DNA from: Calditrichota bacterium
Lineage (GTDB): Bacteria; Calditrichota; Calditrichia; RBG-13-44-9; J042
Direction: 5' to 3'
Length of the DNA stretch: 34,502 nt
Assembly: GCA_013150955.1 (NCBI GenBank)
Contig: JAADJD010000006.1
Coordinates: forward strand, 1 to 34,502
The notes below the pieces were generated by a model. The model was not told the DNA's origin and did no database searches. It was given only the letters and a program-made list of their open reading frames with translations. Positions 2,036 through 34,502 of the stretch are shown piece after piece. The translations under genes and the position numbers were made by a program. The stretch's first letter is position 1. Every line of letters starts with the position of its first letter.

Positions 2036-5000
2036 ATGAGCACGGTTCAGAAAGTGGGATTAGGTATTTTCCTGATTGGCATTTTTATGGGGGGATTCCA
2101 GTTCTCCTGTTCATCCTGGCGGACGCTTCCTGTGGGCTATTTGCAACCGGTCGCTTCTTCCACGGCCGAGGATGAGGCAGCGATTCAGTTGTTGGAAGGG
2201 TGGGGGCATCCCTTTATTTTATCCGCTGATGTTAACGTTACCAGGCTGCGGCGCCAGCTGCACCGGCTACCCGTGGTCTGGATTCACATCCCCGACTCGG
2301 TTCACTATCAACAATGGCAATTTTCCGCAGAATGGCTCAACGCGCTGCGGGAATATTACCAGCAGGGTGGACGACTACTACTAACCCAGTACGCGGCCCT
2401 GTTGCCGTATCGGATGTGGATTGAAACCCGAAAACCGGATATTCACCCGCTCCGCATCATCGATTACGGATATGGAAGAAAATATGGTTTTCAGGGATTT
2501 CGGGGTCACCCCATTTTCCATCGACTCTTCGGAGGCGCTTTTGTCTGGGATGCAACTCAGGATCATGTGGCCGATCGCGTGGGCTATTTTGGGGGTGCCT
2601 GGCCGGATTCAGCGCGGGTGATCGGTGTGGACAAAGCCTACGTGCGTGTCTTTCAGGACACGGTACTGGCCTGGGAATATGCCAATCCTGCTGGCGGTCG
2701 GATCGTTGTGTTGGGCGGCTATATTTACCTGGCCAGAGAAAATTTCCTGAAGGAACACCTTCACCAGTTGCTTGTGAATGCACTGGACTATCTGGTTGAT
2801 AAACGTGCGACCCCAAAACCCACCTACTGGTTCCGCGATGCCAACGTACCAAAACGCTTTGCGATCCAGAAGCCCCTGACCGCTCCCGTTTCGTTAACAC
2901 CTGCCATCAGGCTGCAAACGATTGCGCCGGAACTGTTACTGGAACGCCAATCGGGAACAGAAAACTTCTTCGATGTTTCCGGCCGTCGCTGCCTGATCAT
3001 GGGGAAGGAGAAGGGAGGGCTGGACGAAGTGTGGATTCATCCTTTTCGATTGTTGCGGGATTTTCGTCTGGGAATCATCCAGGAGGATCAAATCCTCTGG
3101 CTGGATCAGTTGCCCGTACGCATTGAGGTGCGGCCGGAATCCTTCACCCGTTATTATCATACGCCGTTCGGCATATTGCGGGAAGTGGTGGTGGCCGCTT
3201 TGAATGCACCGGGTGGCTGGATCCAGCTCTCCGGTCAGCTAAAGACTCCTGTTCGCATTCTGGTGAAATTTCGGGCGGATCTCCGCTGGATGTGGCCGTA
3301 CCGGGAAAATACACTGGGAAGCGTTTGGTTTGCCTACGATTCCACCGCCGCTGCGCTTCACATTCGGGATAAAAGTGGAGATTTTTACGGCGTATTTGGT
3401 GGAAGCATGAAGCCGCTTCAGCACCTGGAGGGAGCGTTTGATGATATTCAATGGAAGGAAGGACGATTGATGGGTGTGCCGGGAAGTGAAAACCAGGTCT
3501 ACCACGCCGCAGTCTACGCCTGGGAAGGCCAGCTGGATCAGGCGTTTACCTATGCATTTGCCGGAAGTGATCTGGGAAGGGAAGATGTGGAGAAAGCGTT
3601 TCGTCGATTGCGAGAGGCTCCTGCTGAGGTTTACCAGGAACTTGTGCACTATTATGAGAATTTTTTAGAAACCCACACCGTGATTCGTTCTCCGGATGCC
3701 CATTTCAATCGAGGTTATTTATGGTCGCTGGTGGGCACGGATCGGTTCTGGGTGCACACGCCGCGGTTGGGAACGGCCCTGGTGGCCGGGTATGCCACCA
3801 CCGCACGGGGGTGGGATGGGGGACACCGTATCAACGGACGGCCGGGATATGCCTGGTATTTTGGCCGTGATGCCGAATGGGCCGCACTGGCCATTACCGC
3901 TTATGGGGATTTTGATGGGGTGCGTCAGCAACTGGCGTTTTTCCGGAAATATCAGGACATTTCAGGGAAAATCTTTCATGAGATTTCCACCAGTGGCGTG
4001 GTGCATTTCGACGCTGCGGATGCCACCCCGCTGTATCCCATCCTGGCGGCTCATTATTTGCGCCATTCCGGTAACCAGGCGTTTATTCGGAAAATCTGGC
4101 CATCGCTTAAAAAAGCTATGGACTTTCTGGAAACCACCGATTGGAACAGGGATGGGCTGATTGACAATCGCCACGTGGGTCACGGCTGGATTGAAGGTGG
4201 GCGGCTTTACGGGGCGCAAACGACTCTTTATCTGGCCGGATTGTGGGCGCGCTGTTTATCTGATATGGCCTATCTTACCCGAACGATTGGCCACCTGGAA
4301 CTGGCAGAGCGTTATCAACGGCGGGCTGATAGTGTCATCGCCATTATTGAACGGGACTTCTGGAATCCGAAAACCCAATTTTATTATCTGGGAAAATGGC
4401 CGGATGGAAGCTATCGTGATGACGAAACCGTTTTGCCCGCTACGTTAATGAATTTCAAACTGCTGGATCCCGACCGTGTGGGCCGAATGCTGGAGGCATA
4501 TGCCAGTTCCGCGTTTACTGCGGATTGGGGAGTTCGAATCCTGAGTAAGCAATCGCCGTATTTCAATCCCCGTGGATATCATTCCGGCAGTGTCTGGCCG
4601 CTGTTTACCGGCTGGGCAGCCTTGGCGGAATACAATTATGGATTTTCGGTTCAGGGATTTACCCACATGATGGAAAATTTGAATGGTTATCGGCACTGGG
4701 CGCTGGGATTTATTGAGGAGGTGCTGCATGGTGAAGTTTATCAACCGCACGGCGTGTGTCCCCATCAATGTTGGTCGGAAACCGGGGTGTTGATTCCTGC
4801 TTTGCTGGGAATGGTGGGGTTTTATCCCGATGCGACCGACCGGAAAGTGCTGCTCCAGCCGCGATTCCCGGTTCACTGGGATCATGTCTCTGTGGATCAT
4901 TTACGGGTTGGCAAGACCCGCTTTTCCCTCCAGTGGCGCTGGGAGGATCATCGTTTGCAGGTCCAATTTAAGAAGGATGCAGGCCCAACCGTCACGGTGG

Positions 5001-5560: not shown

Positions 5561-5745
5561 TCCCAAATAATGCATTAAACCCAAATTATGCAATAAACCG
5601 CGAATCACGCGAATGAAACCAAAAAATATCTACAAAATCGCGAATAAGCCCTGGAACACATTTTGATCCAGACACAATCCAATGTATTTTATTTGTTTTA
5701 TTTGTGTTCATTCGTGTGATTCGTAGGCTAATGCATAATCTGGGA
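5561..5745 (+). repeat. Dispersed TWA element, block 3
   Basis: A short end fragment (5561-5578) is followed by a full 167-bp copy, 5579-5745, in the same orientation as block 1 (ACCCAAATTATGC to GCATAATCTGGGA). Flanks are TAA and TGA, one mismatch. The gap 5453-5818 otherwise shows no gene and no convincing terminator. Confidence 0.85.
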
Positions 5746-8001: not shown

Positions 8002-8751
8002 ATGAAAAAATTGAAACATATGTTAAGTGAATGGCCCCACGGTGCGGTTTTTTCTTCGCATTATTTACGGCAAAAAGGCATTAAAGCAGAACATTTGAAG
8101 AGATACCGGAAGAGCGGATGGATTGTTAACGTCGCCAGAGGAGCCTACAAATTAGCTGGTGATCACATCGATTGGATGGGTGCCGTGTATGGATTACAAC
8201 AGGAAAAAAATGTGCACATCGGTGGCAAAACGGCACTGGAGTTAAAAGGATACGGTCATTTTATAACCTTCTCTCTACGAACCGTCTTTTTGTATAGTTC
8301 GACCCATAAGACATTACCTCGATGGTTTAAAAACAATGACTGGGGAGTAAAAATTCATTTCAGCTATTTGCACCTGTTTCAGGTTGAAATAAAAGATTCT
8401 TACACAAGGTACGACCATAATAGTTTAAATTTGAAAATATCCGCACCGGAGAGGGCGTTTTTGGAAATGTTGTCTCATATCCCGCAAAAACAAAGTTTCG
8501 ATGAAGCAATGAAAATCATGGAATCATTGACCACATTACGTCCTGAATTGATCCAGCGGTTATTAGAATTGTGCCGTTCAATAAAAGTCAAACGTTTATT
8601 TTTGTATATGGCTGAAAAACACAATCATTTCTGGTTTTCCCATCTGGATTTATCCAGAATTGACCTGGGACGGGGAAATCGGAGTATCGTTAAAAATGGC
8701 TTGTTTAATAAAAAGTACCGGATTACTGTTCCTGGAGAATTTGAAAATTGA
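8002..8751 (+). CDS. abiEi: AbiEi-type antitoxin / transcriptional regulator
   Basis: A 249-residue protein with an N-terminal winged-helix region (GAVFSSHYLRQKGIKAEHLK, then SGWIVNVARGAYKLAG) and the block HIGGKTALELKGYGHF that are characteristic of AbiEi antitoxins of type IV toxin-antitoxin systems. The C-terminal two thirds carry the second conserved domain (SAPERAFLEMLSHIP). AbiEi neutralises its toxin partner without forming a stable complex and represses the operon. The TGA stop overlaps the TTG start of the toxin gene by four bases, so the two are translationally coupled. Upstream half-sites are listed separately. The pair is AT-richer than the genes on either side, in keeping with acquisition as a mobile defence cassette (inference). 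Confidence 0.85.
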   Translation: MKKLKHMLSEWPHGAVFSSHYLRQKGIKAEHLKRYRKSGWIVNVARGAYKLAGDHIDWMGAVYGLQQEKNVHIGGKTALELKGYGHFITFSLRTVFLYSSTHKTLPRWFKNNDWGVKIHFSYLHLFQVEIKDSYTRYDHNSLNLKISAPERAFLEMLSHIPQKQSFDEAMKIMESLTTLRPELIQRLLELCRSIKVKRLFLYMAEKHNHFWFSHLDLSRIDLGRGNRSIVKNGLFNKKYRITVPGEFEN

Positions 8752-9668
8752 AAGATACGACCTTTTTTAAACAGGCCGATTTGCTTCTGGATTGCATTCC
8801 GTACATATCCCTTGAACCAAATTTTGCAATTAAGGGCGGTACGGCGATTAATTTCTTCTATCGGAACCTACCCCGGTTATCCGTCGATATTGATCTCGTT
8901 TATCTTCCAGTTGAAGATTGGGAAACGACTTTGAAGAACATCCATCTGGCATTACAAAAATTATCAAGCCACATTGAAAAGAGTTTTCCTTTAGTAGAAA
9001 TAAAAACTATCCCTGACCCAAACACAGGTAATATTACCCGTTTGAACATAGAGCGAGAAGGGGCGACTGTTAAAATTGAACCGAATTTCGTCATACGAGG
9101 AACCGTTTTCCCTCCGGAAAAAAGAATGCTGGTAAAGAAAGCGCAAGAATTATTTGAAAAGGCTGTGGAAGCGCAAACTCTATCCTTTGCGGACTTGTTT
9201 GCCAGTAAGATTTGTGCTGCCCTGGATCGTCAGCATCCACGGGATTTATTTGATGTGAAGCTTTTGTTAGAAAACGAGGGGATAACCCATGATGTCTGGC
9301 AGGCATTTATGGTTTATTTGATCAGCCACAATCGGCCAATTGTTGAATTGTTGAATCCAAACTGGAAAAGCATTCAACAGGAATTTGAAACCAATTTTCA
9401 GGGGATGACCATCATCCCCATTACAATGGAAGAATTGTATCATACCCGTGATCTTCTTGTGAAAATGATTCGAAAGGCCTTAACGGAGAATGATAAAAAG
9501 TTTCTGCTATCATTTAAGAAGGGAAAGCCGGAATGGGAGCTCCTTTCCGTTAAACATGCCCAAGACCTGCCAGCCGTGAAGTGGAAACTGTTGAATATTA
9601 AGCGAATGAGTCCGTTAAAGCGGAGACAGGCTTACCAGAAACTTGCCGATTATCTCGAAAAAATTTGA
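8748..9668 (+). CDS. abiEii: AbiEii-type nucleotidyltransferase toxin
   Basis: A 306-residue protein with the polymerase-beta-like nucleotidyltransferase signature of AbiEii/AbiGii toxins: KGGTA at residues 29-33 followed by LSVDIDLVY, with the metal-binding aspartates D47 and D49. A later block, FADLFASKICAALDRQHPRDLFDVKLLL, is the conserved DUF1814 core. Family members use nucleotide triphosphates to arrest growth, and some modify tRNA acceptor ends. The start is TTG at 8748, overlapping the antitoxin stop (TTGA), with GGAG ten bases upstream. The active-site residues are intact, so the system looks functional. It may act in phage defence or element maintenance; the sequence does not say which. 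Confidence 0.87.
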   Translation: MKDTTFFKQADLLLDCIPYISLEPNFAIKGGTAINFFYRNLPRLSVDIDLVYLPVEDWETTLKNIHLALQKLSSHIEKSFPLVEIKTIPDPNTGNITRLNIEREGATVKIEPNFVIRGTVFPPEKRMLVKKAQELFEKAVEAQTLSFADLFASKICAALDRQHPRDLFDVKLLLENEGITHDVWQAFMVYLISHNRPIVELLNPNWKSIQQEFETNFQGMTIIPITMEELYHTRDLLVKMIRKALTENDKKFLLSFKKGKPEWELLSVKHAQDLPAVKWKLLNIKRMSPLKRRQAYQKLADYLEKI

Positions 9669-25499: not shown

Positions 25500-25823
25500 A
25501 TTGTGCTAGAGCCTACGAATTACACAAAATAACACAAATAAAAAACCAGTTTATGCATTCGCCTACGAATTACACGAATTAGTCCCAATAAATATAATAA
25601 AATGCACTGGATTCTATCTGGATGAAAAACGTTCTCCCGGATATATTCGCGATTTTGTTGATTTTTTTCGAATTCATTCGCATGATTCGTGGATTACCAC
25701 AATTTGGGATAAAATCCATTCAATGATATCTGGATGAAAAATGTGTTCCGGGGTATATTCACGATTTTGTTTATATTTTTCGGATTAATTCGCCCGATTC
25801 GCGGTTTAAGCAGTATTTAGGTT
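25500..25823. repeat. Dispersed TWA element, block 9
   Basis: An end fragment (about 25500-25540) is followed by a full 165-bp copy at about 25545-25709 (CCAGTTTATGCATTCGCC on the left; CATGATTCGTGG and TTTGGGA on the right) and then a second, shortened copy end to 25823 (CGCCCGATTCGCGG, TTTAGGT). The right flank is TAA and the left AAA. The gap 25263-25866 contains nothing else recognisable. Confidence 0.78.
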
Positions 25824-28946: not shown

Positions 28947-29130
28947 TGCACTTCCTCCCATTCAGCCGAATATTTAATATAATTGGATGAAACCGTTTGT
29001 GCAACCGCTGGACGGCCAATTTTCGGTTGGTTTGTGTGAGTTGAATTTTAAATTTTAACATAAGGGAGGAGCGGTCGATCAGACCCTCAAAACGGTCAGC
29101 GACGCATCCGTATCAATCAAACATTTTATG

Positions 29131-29447
29131 AACCGAAATAATGCATTAAACCGCGAATCACACGAATGAAACCAAAAAATATCTACAAAATCGCGAATAA
29201 ACCCAAATAATACACAAAAACCACGAATCAGGCGAATGAATCCAATGAATATCAACAAAATATCGATTAAATCCAGGAACACAGTTTTTATCCAAATAAT
29301 CAAACGGATTTTATTATTTTTGTTCGCGTTCATTCGTGTCATTCGTAGGCTAATGCATAATCTGGGATAAGCCCCGAAACGAATTTTCATCCAGATATTA
29401 TCCAATGGATTTTATTTGTGTGAGTTCGTGTCATTCGTAGTCTAATG
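29131..29447 (+). repeat. Dispersed TWA element, block 10 (copy inserted inside another copy)
   Basis: An outer copy begins at 29131. At its internal GCGAATAA it is interrupted by a full 167-bp inner copy (29201-29367, ACCCAAATAATAC to GCATAATCTGGGA), with TAA at 29198-29200 repeated at 29368-29370. The outer copy then resumes (GCCCCGAAACGAATTTTCAT) and ends near 29447. Removing the inner copy and one TAA restores the sequence seen in block 3 (GCGAATAAGCCC). Confidence 0.85.
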
Positions 29448-29473
29448 GGTTTTATACCAAATGTCAAAAAAAA

Positions 29474-29927: not shown

Positions 29928-32387
29928 ATGAAACTTTTCAGATCCGTGATTTATTTTGTCTTATTGTTTTATATGTATGTTATTTCTCAGGTGAATTTCC
30001 AGCCCCATACAATTGTTGGAGGTGAATACCGAGCTCTGGGGGCAACTTCTGTTTATTCGGCTGATCTCGATAACGATGGCGATTTAGATGTGCTTTCAGC
30101 CTCTTCTGGTGATGACAAGATTGCTTGGTATGAAAATACAGGTAACGGTGTTTTCACAGTTCGAATTATTACCGATAGTGCGGACGGTGCACGTTCTGTT
30201 TTCGCCATAGATTTAAATAGAGATGGATTTATAGATGTATTGTCTGCTTCGTCTCGTGATAATAAAGTTGTGTGGTACGAAAACAATGGCCACGGAAATT
30301 TTATTTCTCACATTATTTCTAACGATGCGGACGGAGCTGAATCGATTTATGCAATTGATATTGATGAGGATGGTGATATTGATGTCTTGTCTGCCTCGTA
30401 TTTCGACGATAAAATAGCATGGTATGAGAATAACGGGAAGGGTAATTTTACAACACATATTATAACCACAACAGCTAATGGGGTGCGTTCCGTCTTTGCA
30501 GTAGATTTGGATAAAGACGGTGATAACGATGTGCTCTCGGCTTCTTACATTGATAATAAAATTTCATGGTATGAAAATGATGGGCAGCAAAATTTTACCG
30601 AACGGGTGATCTCTACTTCGGCAGATGGAGCGCGATCTATATATGCATCTGATATTGATGGAGACAATGATGTCGATATAATAACCGCCTTATACAAGTG
30701 GGATAAGATTACCTTGTATGAAAACAGAGGAGGCGGGGAATTTAAAGAACAAGTGATTTCGGATCATGCAAATGGTGCTTATGCAGTTTTTGTTGAGGAT
30801 ATCGATAACGATGGTGATATGGATGTGTTAGCTGCATTATATATTGATGACAAAATTGTTTGGTATGAAAATAAGGGTAATAACAATTTTGTTACACATG
30901 TGGTTGCGCAAGAAATCGATGGTGCATCTTCCGTTTATGCAATAGATTTAGATGAAGATGGAGACATTGACATTTTAACGTCTTCTACCGGAAATAATGA
31001 AATTTCCTGGTTTGAAAATGACGGCTATGAGAATTTTACCAAGCATGTGTTGACAATTAAAGCGGATGGTGCAAATTCCGTTTATGCCACGGACATTGAT
31101 GGAGATGGAGATATCGATATTACCTCAACATCTTTTAGGGATGATAAAGTTGCGTGGTATGAAAATATTGGCCAGGGGAATTTTATTCATCATGTGATCA
31201 GTACCGAAGTAGATGGTGCAAGTTCAGTATACGTTGTTGACATAGATAGTGATGGAGATATGGATTTAGTCTCGGCTTCTTTTTCAGGAGATAAAGTTTC
31301 CTGGTACGAGAATGATGGTCAGGAAGGATTTACTGAATGGATTATATCGACTGAGGTAGATGGTGCGCGTTCTGTATTTGCAGCAGATCTCGATAGCGAT
31401 GGAGATCAAGACGTTCTTTGTGGGGTCTTTTTTGATAATAAGATTGAGTGGTACGAAAATGATGGTAAAGGGAATTTTACACCACATATCATTGCAACCG
31501 ATGCATTTGGAGTCTATGCGGTATACAGTACTGATCTTGATGGTGATGGGGACATGGACGTGTTATCAGCTTTATCCGATGCTAATAAAATTACCTGGTA
31601 TGAAAACGACGGAAATGGAAATTTTACTTCTAGGGTGATTAGTTCAAATCCAAAGAATGTGCGATCAATTTATACGGTGGATGTGGATGGGGATGGAGAT
31701 ATGGATGTACTTTCGGCATCGTTAGTCGATGATAAAATTTATTGGTATGAAAACGATGGAAATCAGAATTTTACAGCGCACATAATTTCTACTTCGGCAA
31801 ATGGAGCAAGATCGGTTTATGCTGCGGATATTGACGGTGATGGAGATCCGGATGTTCTCTCAGCTTCTACTTACGACGATAAAATTGCATGGTATGAGAA
31901 TGATGGGCAAGGAAATTTTTCAACATATGTAATAACCTCAGATGCGGATGGGGCGAGTTCTGTTTTTGCAACGGATATTGATGGTGACGGAGATGTAGAT
32001 GTTATTTCGGCTTCATTTGATGATGATAAAATCGCCTGGTATGAAAATTTGCGAATCGTAGGTTTTCAATTTAGTGAGATGGGATTCATCCCTTCTGGAG
32101 TAATTTTGTATTCAAACTATCCCAATCCTTTTAATCCTATTACACATATTAAGTACCAGATTATGCATCGAAGTAAGGTGTGGTTAGCTATCTATAATCC
32201 TTTGGGTCAGAAAATCCGTACGTTGGTTCGGAGGTTGCAAACGCCGGGAACTTATACCGTGATGTGGGATGGGCGTGATGAGAATGGGCAAATCGTCCCT
32301 AGTGGTATTTACCTGTACCAGTTACAAGTACAATCTTTTGGGCAAGAACCGTTTATAGGAGTAAAGAAGATGATATTACTTAAGTGA
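29928..32387 (+). CDS. Secreted FG-GAP/VCBS-type repeat protein with FlgD-like sorting tail
   Basis: An 819-residue protein with a signal peptide (FRSVIYFVLLFYMYVISQ). From ~25 to ~700 it consists of 14 tandem repeats of about 45-49 residues with the pattern SVYAxDxDGDGDxDVLSAS followed by DDKIAWYENDGxGNFxxHxI. Each has a calcium-binding DxDxDGDxD loop, as in FG-GAP/VCBS repeats and integrin-type beta-propellers; fourteen repeats would make two seven-bladed propellers. The C-terminal ~90 residues (NYPNPFNPITHIKYQI, then WDGRDENGQIVPSGIYLYQL) are the FlgD-like immunoglobulin fold used as a sorting or anchoring tail in FCB-group bacteria, often tied to type IX secretion. TAGGAGG lies upstream of the ATG. 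Repeat 5 is the least regular. The gene is much AT-richer than the window's left side. Confidence 0.88.
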   Translation: MKLFRSVIYFVLLFYMYVISQVNFQPHTIVGGEYRALGATSVYSADLDNDGDLDVLSASSGDDKIAWYENTGNGVFTVRIITDSADGARSVFAIDLNRDGFIDVLSASSRDNKVVWYENNGHGNFISHIISNDADGAESIYAIDIDEDGDIDVLSASYFDDKIAWYENNGKGNFTTHIITTTANGVRSVFAVDLDKDGDNDVLSASYIDNKISWYENDGQQNFTERVISTSADGARSIYASDIDGDNDVDIITALYKWDKITLYENRGGGEFKEQVISDHANGAYAVFVEDIDNDGDMDVLAALYIDDKIVWYENKGNNNFVTHVVAQEIDGASSVYAIDLDEDGDIDILTSSTGNNEISWFENDGYENFTKHVLTIKADGANSVYATDIDGDGDIDITSTSFRDDKVAWYENIGQGNFIHHVISTEVDGASSVYVVDIDSDGDMDLVSASFSGDKVSWYENDGQEGFTEWIISTEVDGARSVFAADLDSDGDQDVLCGVFFDNKIEWYENDGKGNFTPHIIATDAFGVYAVYSTDLDGDGDMDVLSALSDANKITWYENDGNGNFTSRVISSNPKNVRSIYTVDVDGDGDMDVLSASLVDDKIYWYENDGNQNFTAHIISTSANGARSVYAADIDGDGDPDVLSASTYDDKIAWYENDGQGNFSTYVITSDADGASSVFATDIDGDGDVDVISASFDDDKIAWYENLRIVGFQFSEMGFIPSGVILYSNYPNPFNPITHIKYQIMHRSKVWLAIYNPLGQKIRTLVRRLQTPGTYTVMWDGRDENGQIVPSGIYLYQLQVQSFGQEPFIGVKKMILLK

Positions 32388-32562: not shown

Positions 32563-33467
32563 GCACAATCTCCGTGATAGGTTTGATAAAAATTCAGCCA
32601 TTGTCAAACGATCTTTGAAGAATCTTCTTGATCCGGACGGAAATTTACCTAGACGAGGCAAAAAACCGAAATTCTCCGATGTGGAAGCCATTGCCCTGAG
32701 TCTGCTTTCTGAGAGTCTCATGATTGACAGCGAAAACTATTTATTCAAGTTGTTGCATAATAATTACAAAGAGCAATTTCCGAACTTGATTGAACGCTCC
32801 CGCTTCAATCGCCGAAGAAAAACAACTTCACCATTTAATCGAGAAATTTCGCATCCGTATAGTTGAACAACTTGTGGAACATGAAAACTTTTTTCTCATT
32901 GATTCCATGCTTCTGCCGATCGTGCGATTCTCTCGGGCAAAAAGAGCGCGAATCTGTAGAGAAGACTATCAAAGCGCACCCAGTTTCGGCTATTGTGCGG
33001 CTCACGATCAACCCTACTTTGGCTATAAACTTCATGGGGTTGCTACTGTAAATGGCGTTATGACTCATTTTGATCTCTCTAAAGCCCATGTCCATGATAT
33101 TGAATATCTTAAAGATATTCGCCATTATTACCCGAATTGTCCTCTATTGGGAGATCGAGCTTACCTGAGCAATCCCTTGCAACTGGAATTATTTGAAGAG
33201 AATCGCCTGTTCCTGATTACTCCCATGCGAATGAATCAGAAAAACTACCGAAAACAACCGGCTGTGTTTCGCTATCTGAGGAGAAGAATCGAAACGATTT
33301 TCTCCCAATTGTGTGACCAGTTTCAGATTCAAAAGAACTATGCTAAGACGTTCCGTGGCTTAGCCATCCGCATTTTAACAAAAATTACCGCATTCACTTT
33401 GCTAAAATATTTGAACAAATATGAATTCGCTAATGAATTAAACCATATCAAACATGTTCTGATTTAA
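32501..33467 (+). pseudogene. IS982-family transposase, interrupted by a +1 frameshift
   Basis: The first frame gives NLRDRFDKNSAIVKRSLKNL ... LLSESLMIDSENYLFKLL and IERSRFNRRRK. The second continues QLHHLIEKFRIRIVEQLVEH, FFLIDSMLLPIVRFSRAKRA, YFGYKLHGV, CPLLGDRAYLS and RRRIETIFSQLCDQFQIQKN. DDE residues are visible as D in LIDSM, D in LLGDRAY and E in RRIETIF. The frames join at a run of five A (32818-32822): removing one A restores RRRKQLHHL. IS982 transposases are normally a single frame, so this is a one-base insertion or a sequencing indel. Starts ATG 32501 (GGAG upstream) and ATG 32561 (AAGGA upstream) are both possible. Confidence 0.85.
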
Positions 33468-34402: not shown

Positions 34403-34432
34403 ATGCATTATCCCAGATTACGCATTAGAGAA
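34403..34432. repeat. Fragment of the dispersed TWA element
   Basis: ATGCATTATCCCAGATTACG followed by CATTAG matches the terminal part of the family twice in opposite senses, with no full copy. Nothing else is recognisable from here to the window end. Confidence 0.5.
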
Positions 34433-34502
34433 TTGAACTGGCAACTTAAACTGTTTGGATTTTTGCCAGAGTCCCGTAAACCATTCTCTTCTTTTCAGGG
34501 CA

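Follow-up and report, generated by a model that had tools for sequence, protein, structure and literature searches.

It is already known that bacterial MITEs are moved in trans by resident insertion sequences (ISs), and that members of the IS1380 family generate 5-bp duplications. In the portions of the literature covered here, IS1247 was described with 5-bp direct repeats (PMC3281130) and ISEcp1 with 5-bp duplications (PMC2887853). MITEAba12 of Acinetobacter was reported as a 113-bp element with 9-bp duplications and ISAba12 as partner, with 90 copies across a survey of many genomes (PMC6382973). TIMEs and MITEPye1 are likewise non-autonomous, and a transposase acting in trans is believed to mobilise them (PMC4133298, PMC11578231), TIMEs with 5- or 6-bp duplications (PMC4133298). 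The MITE studied here resembles MITEAba12, as portrayed in the cited extracts, in being short and gene-less, in having ends that match a co-resident IS and in its duplications of fixed length, but it is present in hundreds of copies in one genome as opposed to 90 copies over many. It differs from TIMEs and MITEPye1, to which the same extracts assign Tn3 and IS1182 partners and one to three copies, and from the IS1380 family itself in that it is 165 bp long, encodes no transposase and matches only over the terminal ~17 bases. The open-licence papers searched, in their available parts, yielded no account of an IS1380-derived MITE.

The window, a stretch of 34,502 nucleotides that makes up one whole contig of the genome (4,068,269 bases in 66 contigs), is crowded with copies on both strands of a repeat of about 165 bp. 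This repeat is a MITE, with no gene and with imperfect terminal inverted repeats ending in CCCARATWATGCATTA. Searches with a profile built from the copies in the window and in 20 stretches of the genome, with 20 further stretches added later, confirmed a short, multicopy, non-coding element, most copies being 160-170 bp long. The terminal inverted repeats were confirmed by profile matches on both strands, by comparison of one end with the other and by an RNA stem formed by the paired ends. In the 833,768 bases sampled, 306 pieces and 151 full-length copies were identified (87 full-length copies in the first 434,502 bases and 64 in the second set), the MITE accounting for 4.48% of the sampled bases; scaling from the sample gives approximately 740 full-length copies genome-wide. 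In addition, the end pattern ACCCARATTATGCAT, with at most one mismatch, had 568 matches in the whole genome vs 2 for the reversed control.

One copy in the window is interrupted at GCGAATAA by one complete copy (Table 1), as a preliminary description of this DNA had claimed. The sequence is GCGA-ATAAA-CCCAAATAATAC at the left junction and AATCTGGG-ATAAG-CCCCGAAACG at the right one, and the pentamer ATGAA (29128-29132) directly precedes the left half of the outer copy. Deletion of the inner copy plus one pentamer regains the consensus GCGAATAAACCCCG, and the uninterrupted copy at 5580-5743 reads GCGAATAAGCCC across the corresponding restored site. The description had placed the limits of the element at 29201-29367 and its duplication at three bases, TAA; both must be corrected, since the outermost bases of that interval are part of the duplication and TAA is the middle of a 5-bp repeat. 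It had also pointed to filled and empty versions of one target. A readable empty site does exist, but the comparison is one between paralogous copies. An orthologous empty locus, sought through the neighbouring gene, was not found in same-genus and same-family genomes, where that gene had no more than weak matches in the one same-genus genome and matches of 62-63% identity in two same-family genomes.

Table 1. Coordinates of MITE and IS1380-family features in the window
Feature	Position	Strand	Remarks
Inner (inserted) MITE copy, CCCAAATAATACAC...AATGCATAATCTGGG	29202..29366	+	165 bp; limits CCC...GGG
Target duplication (5 bp), left repeat ATAAA	29197..29201	+	
Target duplication (5 bp), right repeat ATAAG	29367..29371	+	one base unlike the left repeat
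Outer copy, left half	29133..29201	+	consensus 1-69, including the first target pentamer
Outer copy, right half	29372..29449	+	from consensus 70 onwards; right end eroded
Uninterrupted family member	5580..5743	+	empty site of the preliminary description; paralogous
Second nested copy	25546..25708	-	outer halves continuous to within 7 bases only; repetitive T-rich stretch
IS1380-family right end, IRR CCCAGATTACGCATTAG	34412..34502	-	minus-strand transposase runs off the contig

The reconstructed outer copy matched 145 of the 151 sampled copies, and the junction was spanned in 144 alignments, 120 of them free of gaps within 10 bases of it. A failure to align across the junction, the result named beforehand as counting against the insertion, was not encountered. 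On the other hand, the gap-free alignment from end to end that had been predicted did not hold, as 9 bases are missing from the reconstructed copy near consensus position 108 and another 9 beside its right end, in both cases away from the junction. These data indicate that the nested insertion at 29202-29366 is real. The relative divergence of the two copies at this site is not as a younger insert predicts, since the inner copy is the more diverged: its terminal branch is the longer (0.059 vs 0.036 for the outer copy) and its match to the consensus is the poorer (137 of 164 positions, vs 134 of 147).

The footprint of the family was determined from the flanks of full-length copies, taking the element as CCC...GGG. 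Exact identity of the 5-bp flanks was observed in 52 of 150 copies vs 12.0 expected, with a maximum of 23 in 3000 shuffles, and the excess was clear only at five bases (6 vs 4.9 expected at 4 bp; 0 vs 0.3 at 6 bp). The first sample had given 20 of 87 vs 6.0 expected. Pentamers of the pattern WTNAW were found at 127 of 150 left flanks and 123 of 150 right flanks, and the target-site duplication of this MITE is a 5-bp WTNAW. Our first reading had been a 3-bp TNA duplication. In the IS1031 group of IS5, a 3-bp TNA is duplicated, and a MITE belonging to such an element would have TAA as its whole footprint. TNA is indeed nearly invariant beside the MITE ends, and identity in a 3-bp register, taken by itself, is mildly in excess (36/87 vs 25.7 expected). 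However, the bases on either side of TNA also agree between flanks (55/87 vs 39.1 and 51/87 vs 42.1), a result that led to the 5-bp test; identity at five bases is in far greater excess, and exact continuity of the nested copies requires the deletion of five bases. The 5-bp register fits far better than a duplication of the IS5/IS1031 type, which is extremely unlikely here.

A candidate source of the transposition function was found in the same genome. A transposase at a contig end (C18) scored 219.4 bits against the NCBIfam IS1380 model NF033539 (cut-off 180), which places it with IS1247 and ISEcp1, and matched PF13701 with E=2.2e-40; its frame of 361 aa is cut by the contig edge, and the profile, of 419 positions, is matched from position 67 onwards. 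The assembly contains no complete copy of this IS: as a repeated element leads one to expect, contigs break off inside it at several places, and five right and five left ends could be read. The window itself stops inside such an element, which explains the contig break; ATTAT (34407-34411) directly precedes its IRR. A further nine IS ends could be read, mostly where contigs of this genome stop; one of the nine is divergent. The IS ends, CCCAGATTACGCATTAG at the right and CCCAGATTACGCAATAG, both resemble the MITE right end CCCAGATTATGCATTAG, the former with one mismatch in 17. In a comparison of the ends, similarity between MITE and IS was seen over these terminal ~17 bases only. WTNAW directly adjoins the IS ends in five of five right and four of five left cases, and at the fifth left end an 8-bp tandem repeat comes first and is followed by ATAAA. 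In one sampled stretch (L068), an IS1380 right end directly adjoins a MITE end, with one common TTAAA between them.

Similar ends and the same duplication length were found at relatives of this IS in other phyla. Related transposases, with identities reaching 60-62% at most, are present in delta-proteobacterial, Balneolia, Nitrospirota (Magnetominusculus) and beta-proteobacterial MAGs. A search for ends was run on 22 of 64 related IS1380 loci. Paired ends with a 5-bp duplication were present at 15 of the 22, most with CCCAGATT or CCCAAATT ends, several of these loci being copies in one genome and not all independent; no paired ends were found at the remaining 7. The duplications fit WTNAW at 14 of the 15 loci, the other being CTCAT. 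Within the phylum, a relative of the transposase was detected in just one other genome of 39, at 31-34% identity, which suggests that the resident IS1380 element was acquired horizontally.

We therefore favour, with a probability of roughly 0.88, a model in which the MITE would be moved in trans by an IS1380-family transposase with insertion at WTNAW, the nested copy at 29197 being one product. The supplied transposase is predicted to bind the MITE ends and to insert the element into AT-rich pentamers of the WTNAW type, which are duplicated, older MITE copies also serving as targets. At 29197, the target was the internal ATAAA of an older copy (consensus 65-69), which the new copy entered in the same orientation. 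The link to IS1380 is supported by the nearly identical ends, the same flanking pentamers and the 5-bp duplications of the relatives. Against the model stand the sharing of only ~17 terminal bases, the incomplete IS copies and transposase frame, the 7 related loci where no paired ends were found, the greater divergence of the inner copy at this site and the one-base difference between the pentamers at 29197 and 29367. From the matching ends and the duplication, the mover was probably the resident IS1380 transposase or a close past relative.

Nesting was then considered across the 150 copies. The continuity test asked for repeat sequence adjoining both sides that is continuous in the consensus once one pentamer is removed. 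Twenty-nine copies were flanked on either side by repeat sequence of a single orientation, and 14 of these had zero discontinuity, 9 on the same strand and 5 on the opposite one. No shuffled control accompanies this test, and its support lies in the 14 of 29 values that are exactly zero, all at a consensus WTNAW; the remaining 15 cases (discontinuity 1 to 94) were left out of the nested count. The sites are consensus 49-53 (2 cases), 65-69 (7, including the one at 29202-29366), 109-113 (2) and 118-122 (3). Exact WTNAW continuity in 6 of 86 copies of the first sample and 14 of 150 of the larger one excludes chance for the nested site described above, which is ordinary within its MITE family. 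The terminal branch of the inner copy is shorter in 10 of the 14 pairs, the pair at 29202-29366 not being among them.

Several other counts were tried and set aside. A looser nested test with a swapped-flank control was uninformative both as such (18/86 observed vs 9-16 in controls) and with a score-gain threshold (9/86 vs 2-8), because the swapped flanks often came from same-site nested copies or gave one-sided matches; the continuity test took its place. The same-strand bias of the first sample (9/9 with discontinuity of at most 7) disappeared in the larger one. A junction pattern found at 267 places was discarded as a measure of nesting, since it allowed two mismatches and also matches non-nested copies.

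Nested structures could also arise with no transposition, as composites of copies that share TAAACCC and have undergone recombination or gene conversion with one another. The consensus at the insertion site, ATAAACCCC, is like the junction of a pentamer with an element end, and the consensus 65-69 site was used above others (7/14), as such exchange might produce. However, for 14 of the 150 copies the outer copy retains its two halves, which run on from each other across a 5-bp repeat, and the cases cover both orientations and four sites, three of them without a following CCC in the consensus. Recombination is very unlikely as the origin of these nested copies, and insertion by transposition is preferred. 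The use of consensus 65-69 as a hot spot is only a hint: the probability of at least seven cases at a given site is 0.0016 (0.012 corrected), assuming seven equally likely central sites, and the number of detectable sites was our choice. In two sampled stretches (L033, about 876-1044, and L034, about 3727-3893), a pair of nested copies that share their insertion site each have AGAAA at the left and ATAAA at the right; their inner and outer sequences differ, yet the changed base is common to both.

Older copies are targets because the MITE consensus contains 13 WTNAW pentamers. The copies carry 62 such pentamers per kb, twice the 31 of the remaining non-ORF DNA, and hold 34% of the WTNAW sites outside ORFs, so nesting needs no special self-preference. 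With 34% of the sites vs 14/150 strictly nested copies (a lower bound), the data show no preference for self beyond site density.

The copies are strongly intergenic: 143 of the 151 full copies do not overlap any ORF with a length of 150 aa or above. Such ORFs make up 78% of the sample, and 20% of the sampled non-ORF DNA consists of MITE copies. This location, together with the unusually stable fold of a single copy (-52.8 kcal/mol; z -7.5 relative to shuffles), could suggest that copies are kept as host functional elements, such as RNA hairpins or intergenic terminators, with nesting incidental. However, the folding and the location are to be expected with no function at all, given the long terminal inverted repeats of the element and selection against the disruption of genes, and the copies diverge (median nearest-neighbour identity of 90%) and interrupt one another. 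A host function is unlikely to account for the family, and we infer that its intergenic location reflects the removal of insertions into genes.

Matches to the MITE were found in 6 of the 39 relatives searched, all few and of at most 58 bases; so few and such short matches suggest that the family expanded recently, on the time scale of the genus. The matches in other genomes of the order fall mostly on an inner motif near query 114-155 (TTCATTCGTGTGATTCGTAG), not on both ends, and this motif may be common to other repeat families of the phylum.

Other features were observed in the window. The gene of an 819-aa FG-GAP repeat protein (29928-32387) contains 14 in-phase units of exactly 147 nt, which are 63-73% alike to one reference unit. 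At 8002-9668, an AbiEi-type antitoxin gene (type IV toxin-antitoxin) is followed by an overlapping 306-aa ORF, and an IS982-family transposase gene of 225 aa (PF01609) lies at 32790-33467. A GWxTD-domain protein and a FlgD-like domain are also encoded; together with the small size of the phylum, 40 genomes in the set compared, they make Calditrichota the probable phylum.

The analysis fixes the footprint and the probable mover of an abundant bacterial MITE. The value of the family lies in its size and clarity, its biology being that of ordinary mobile elements on an unusually large scale: the present sample is 4.5% MITE, vs up to 2% of a genome in the consulted part of a published account (PMC3281130). 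The exact nested sites provide many natural empty/filled pairs that reveal the target used by the transposase. It is possible, and we put it forward tentatively, that this is an apparently undescribed IS1380-derived MITE family that has reached its extrapolated copy number in one lineage, and whose internal target pentamers would let older copies act as a sink for later insertions and leave an insertion record that can be ordered.
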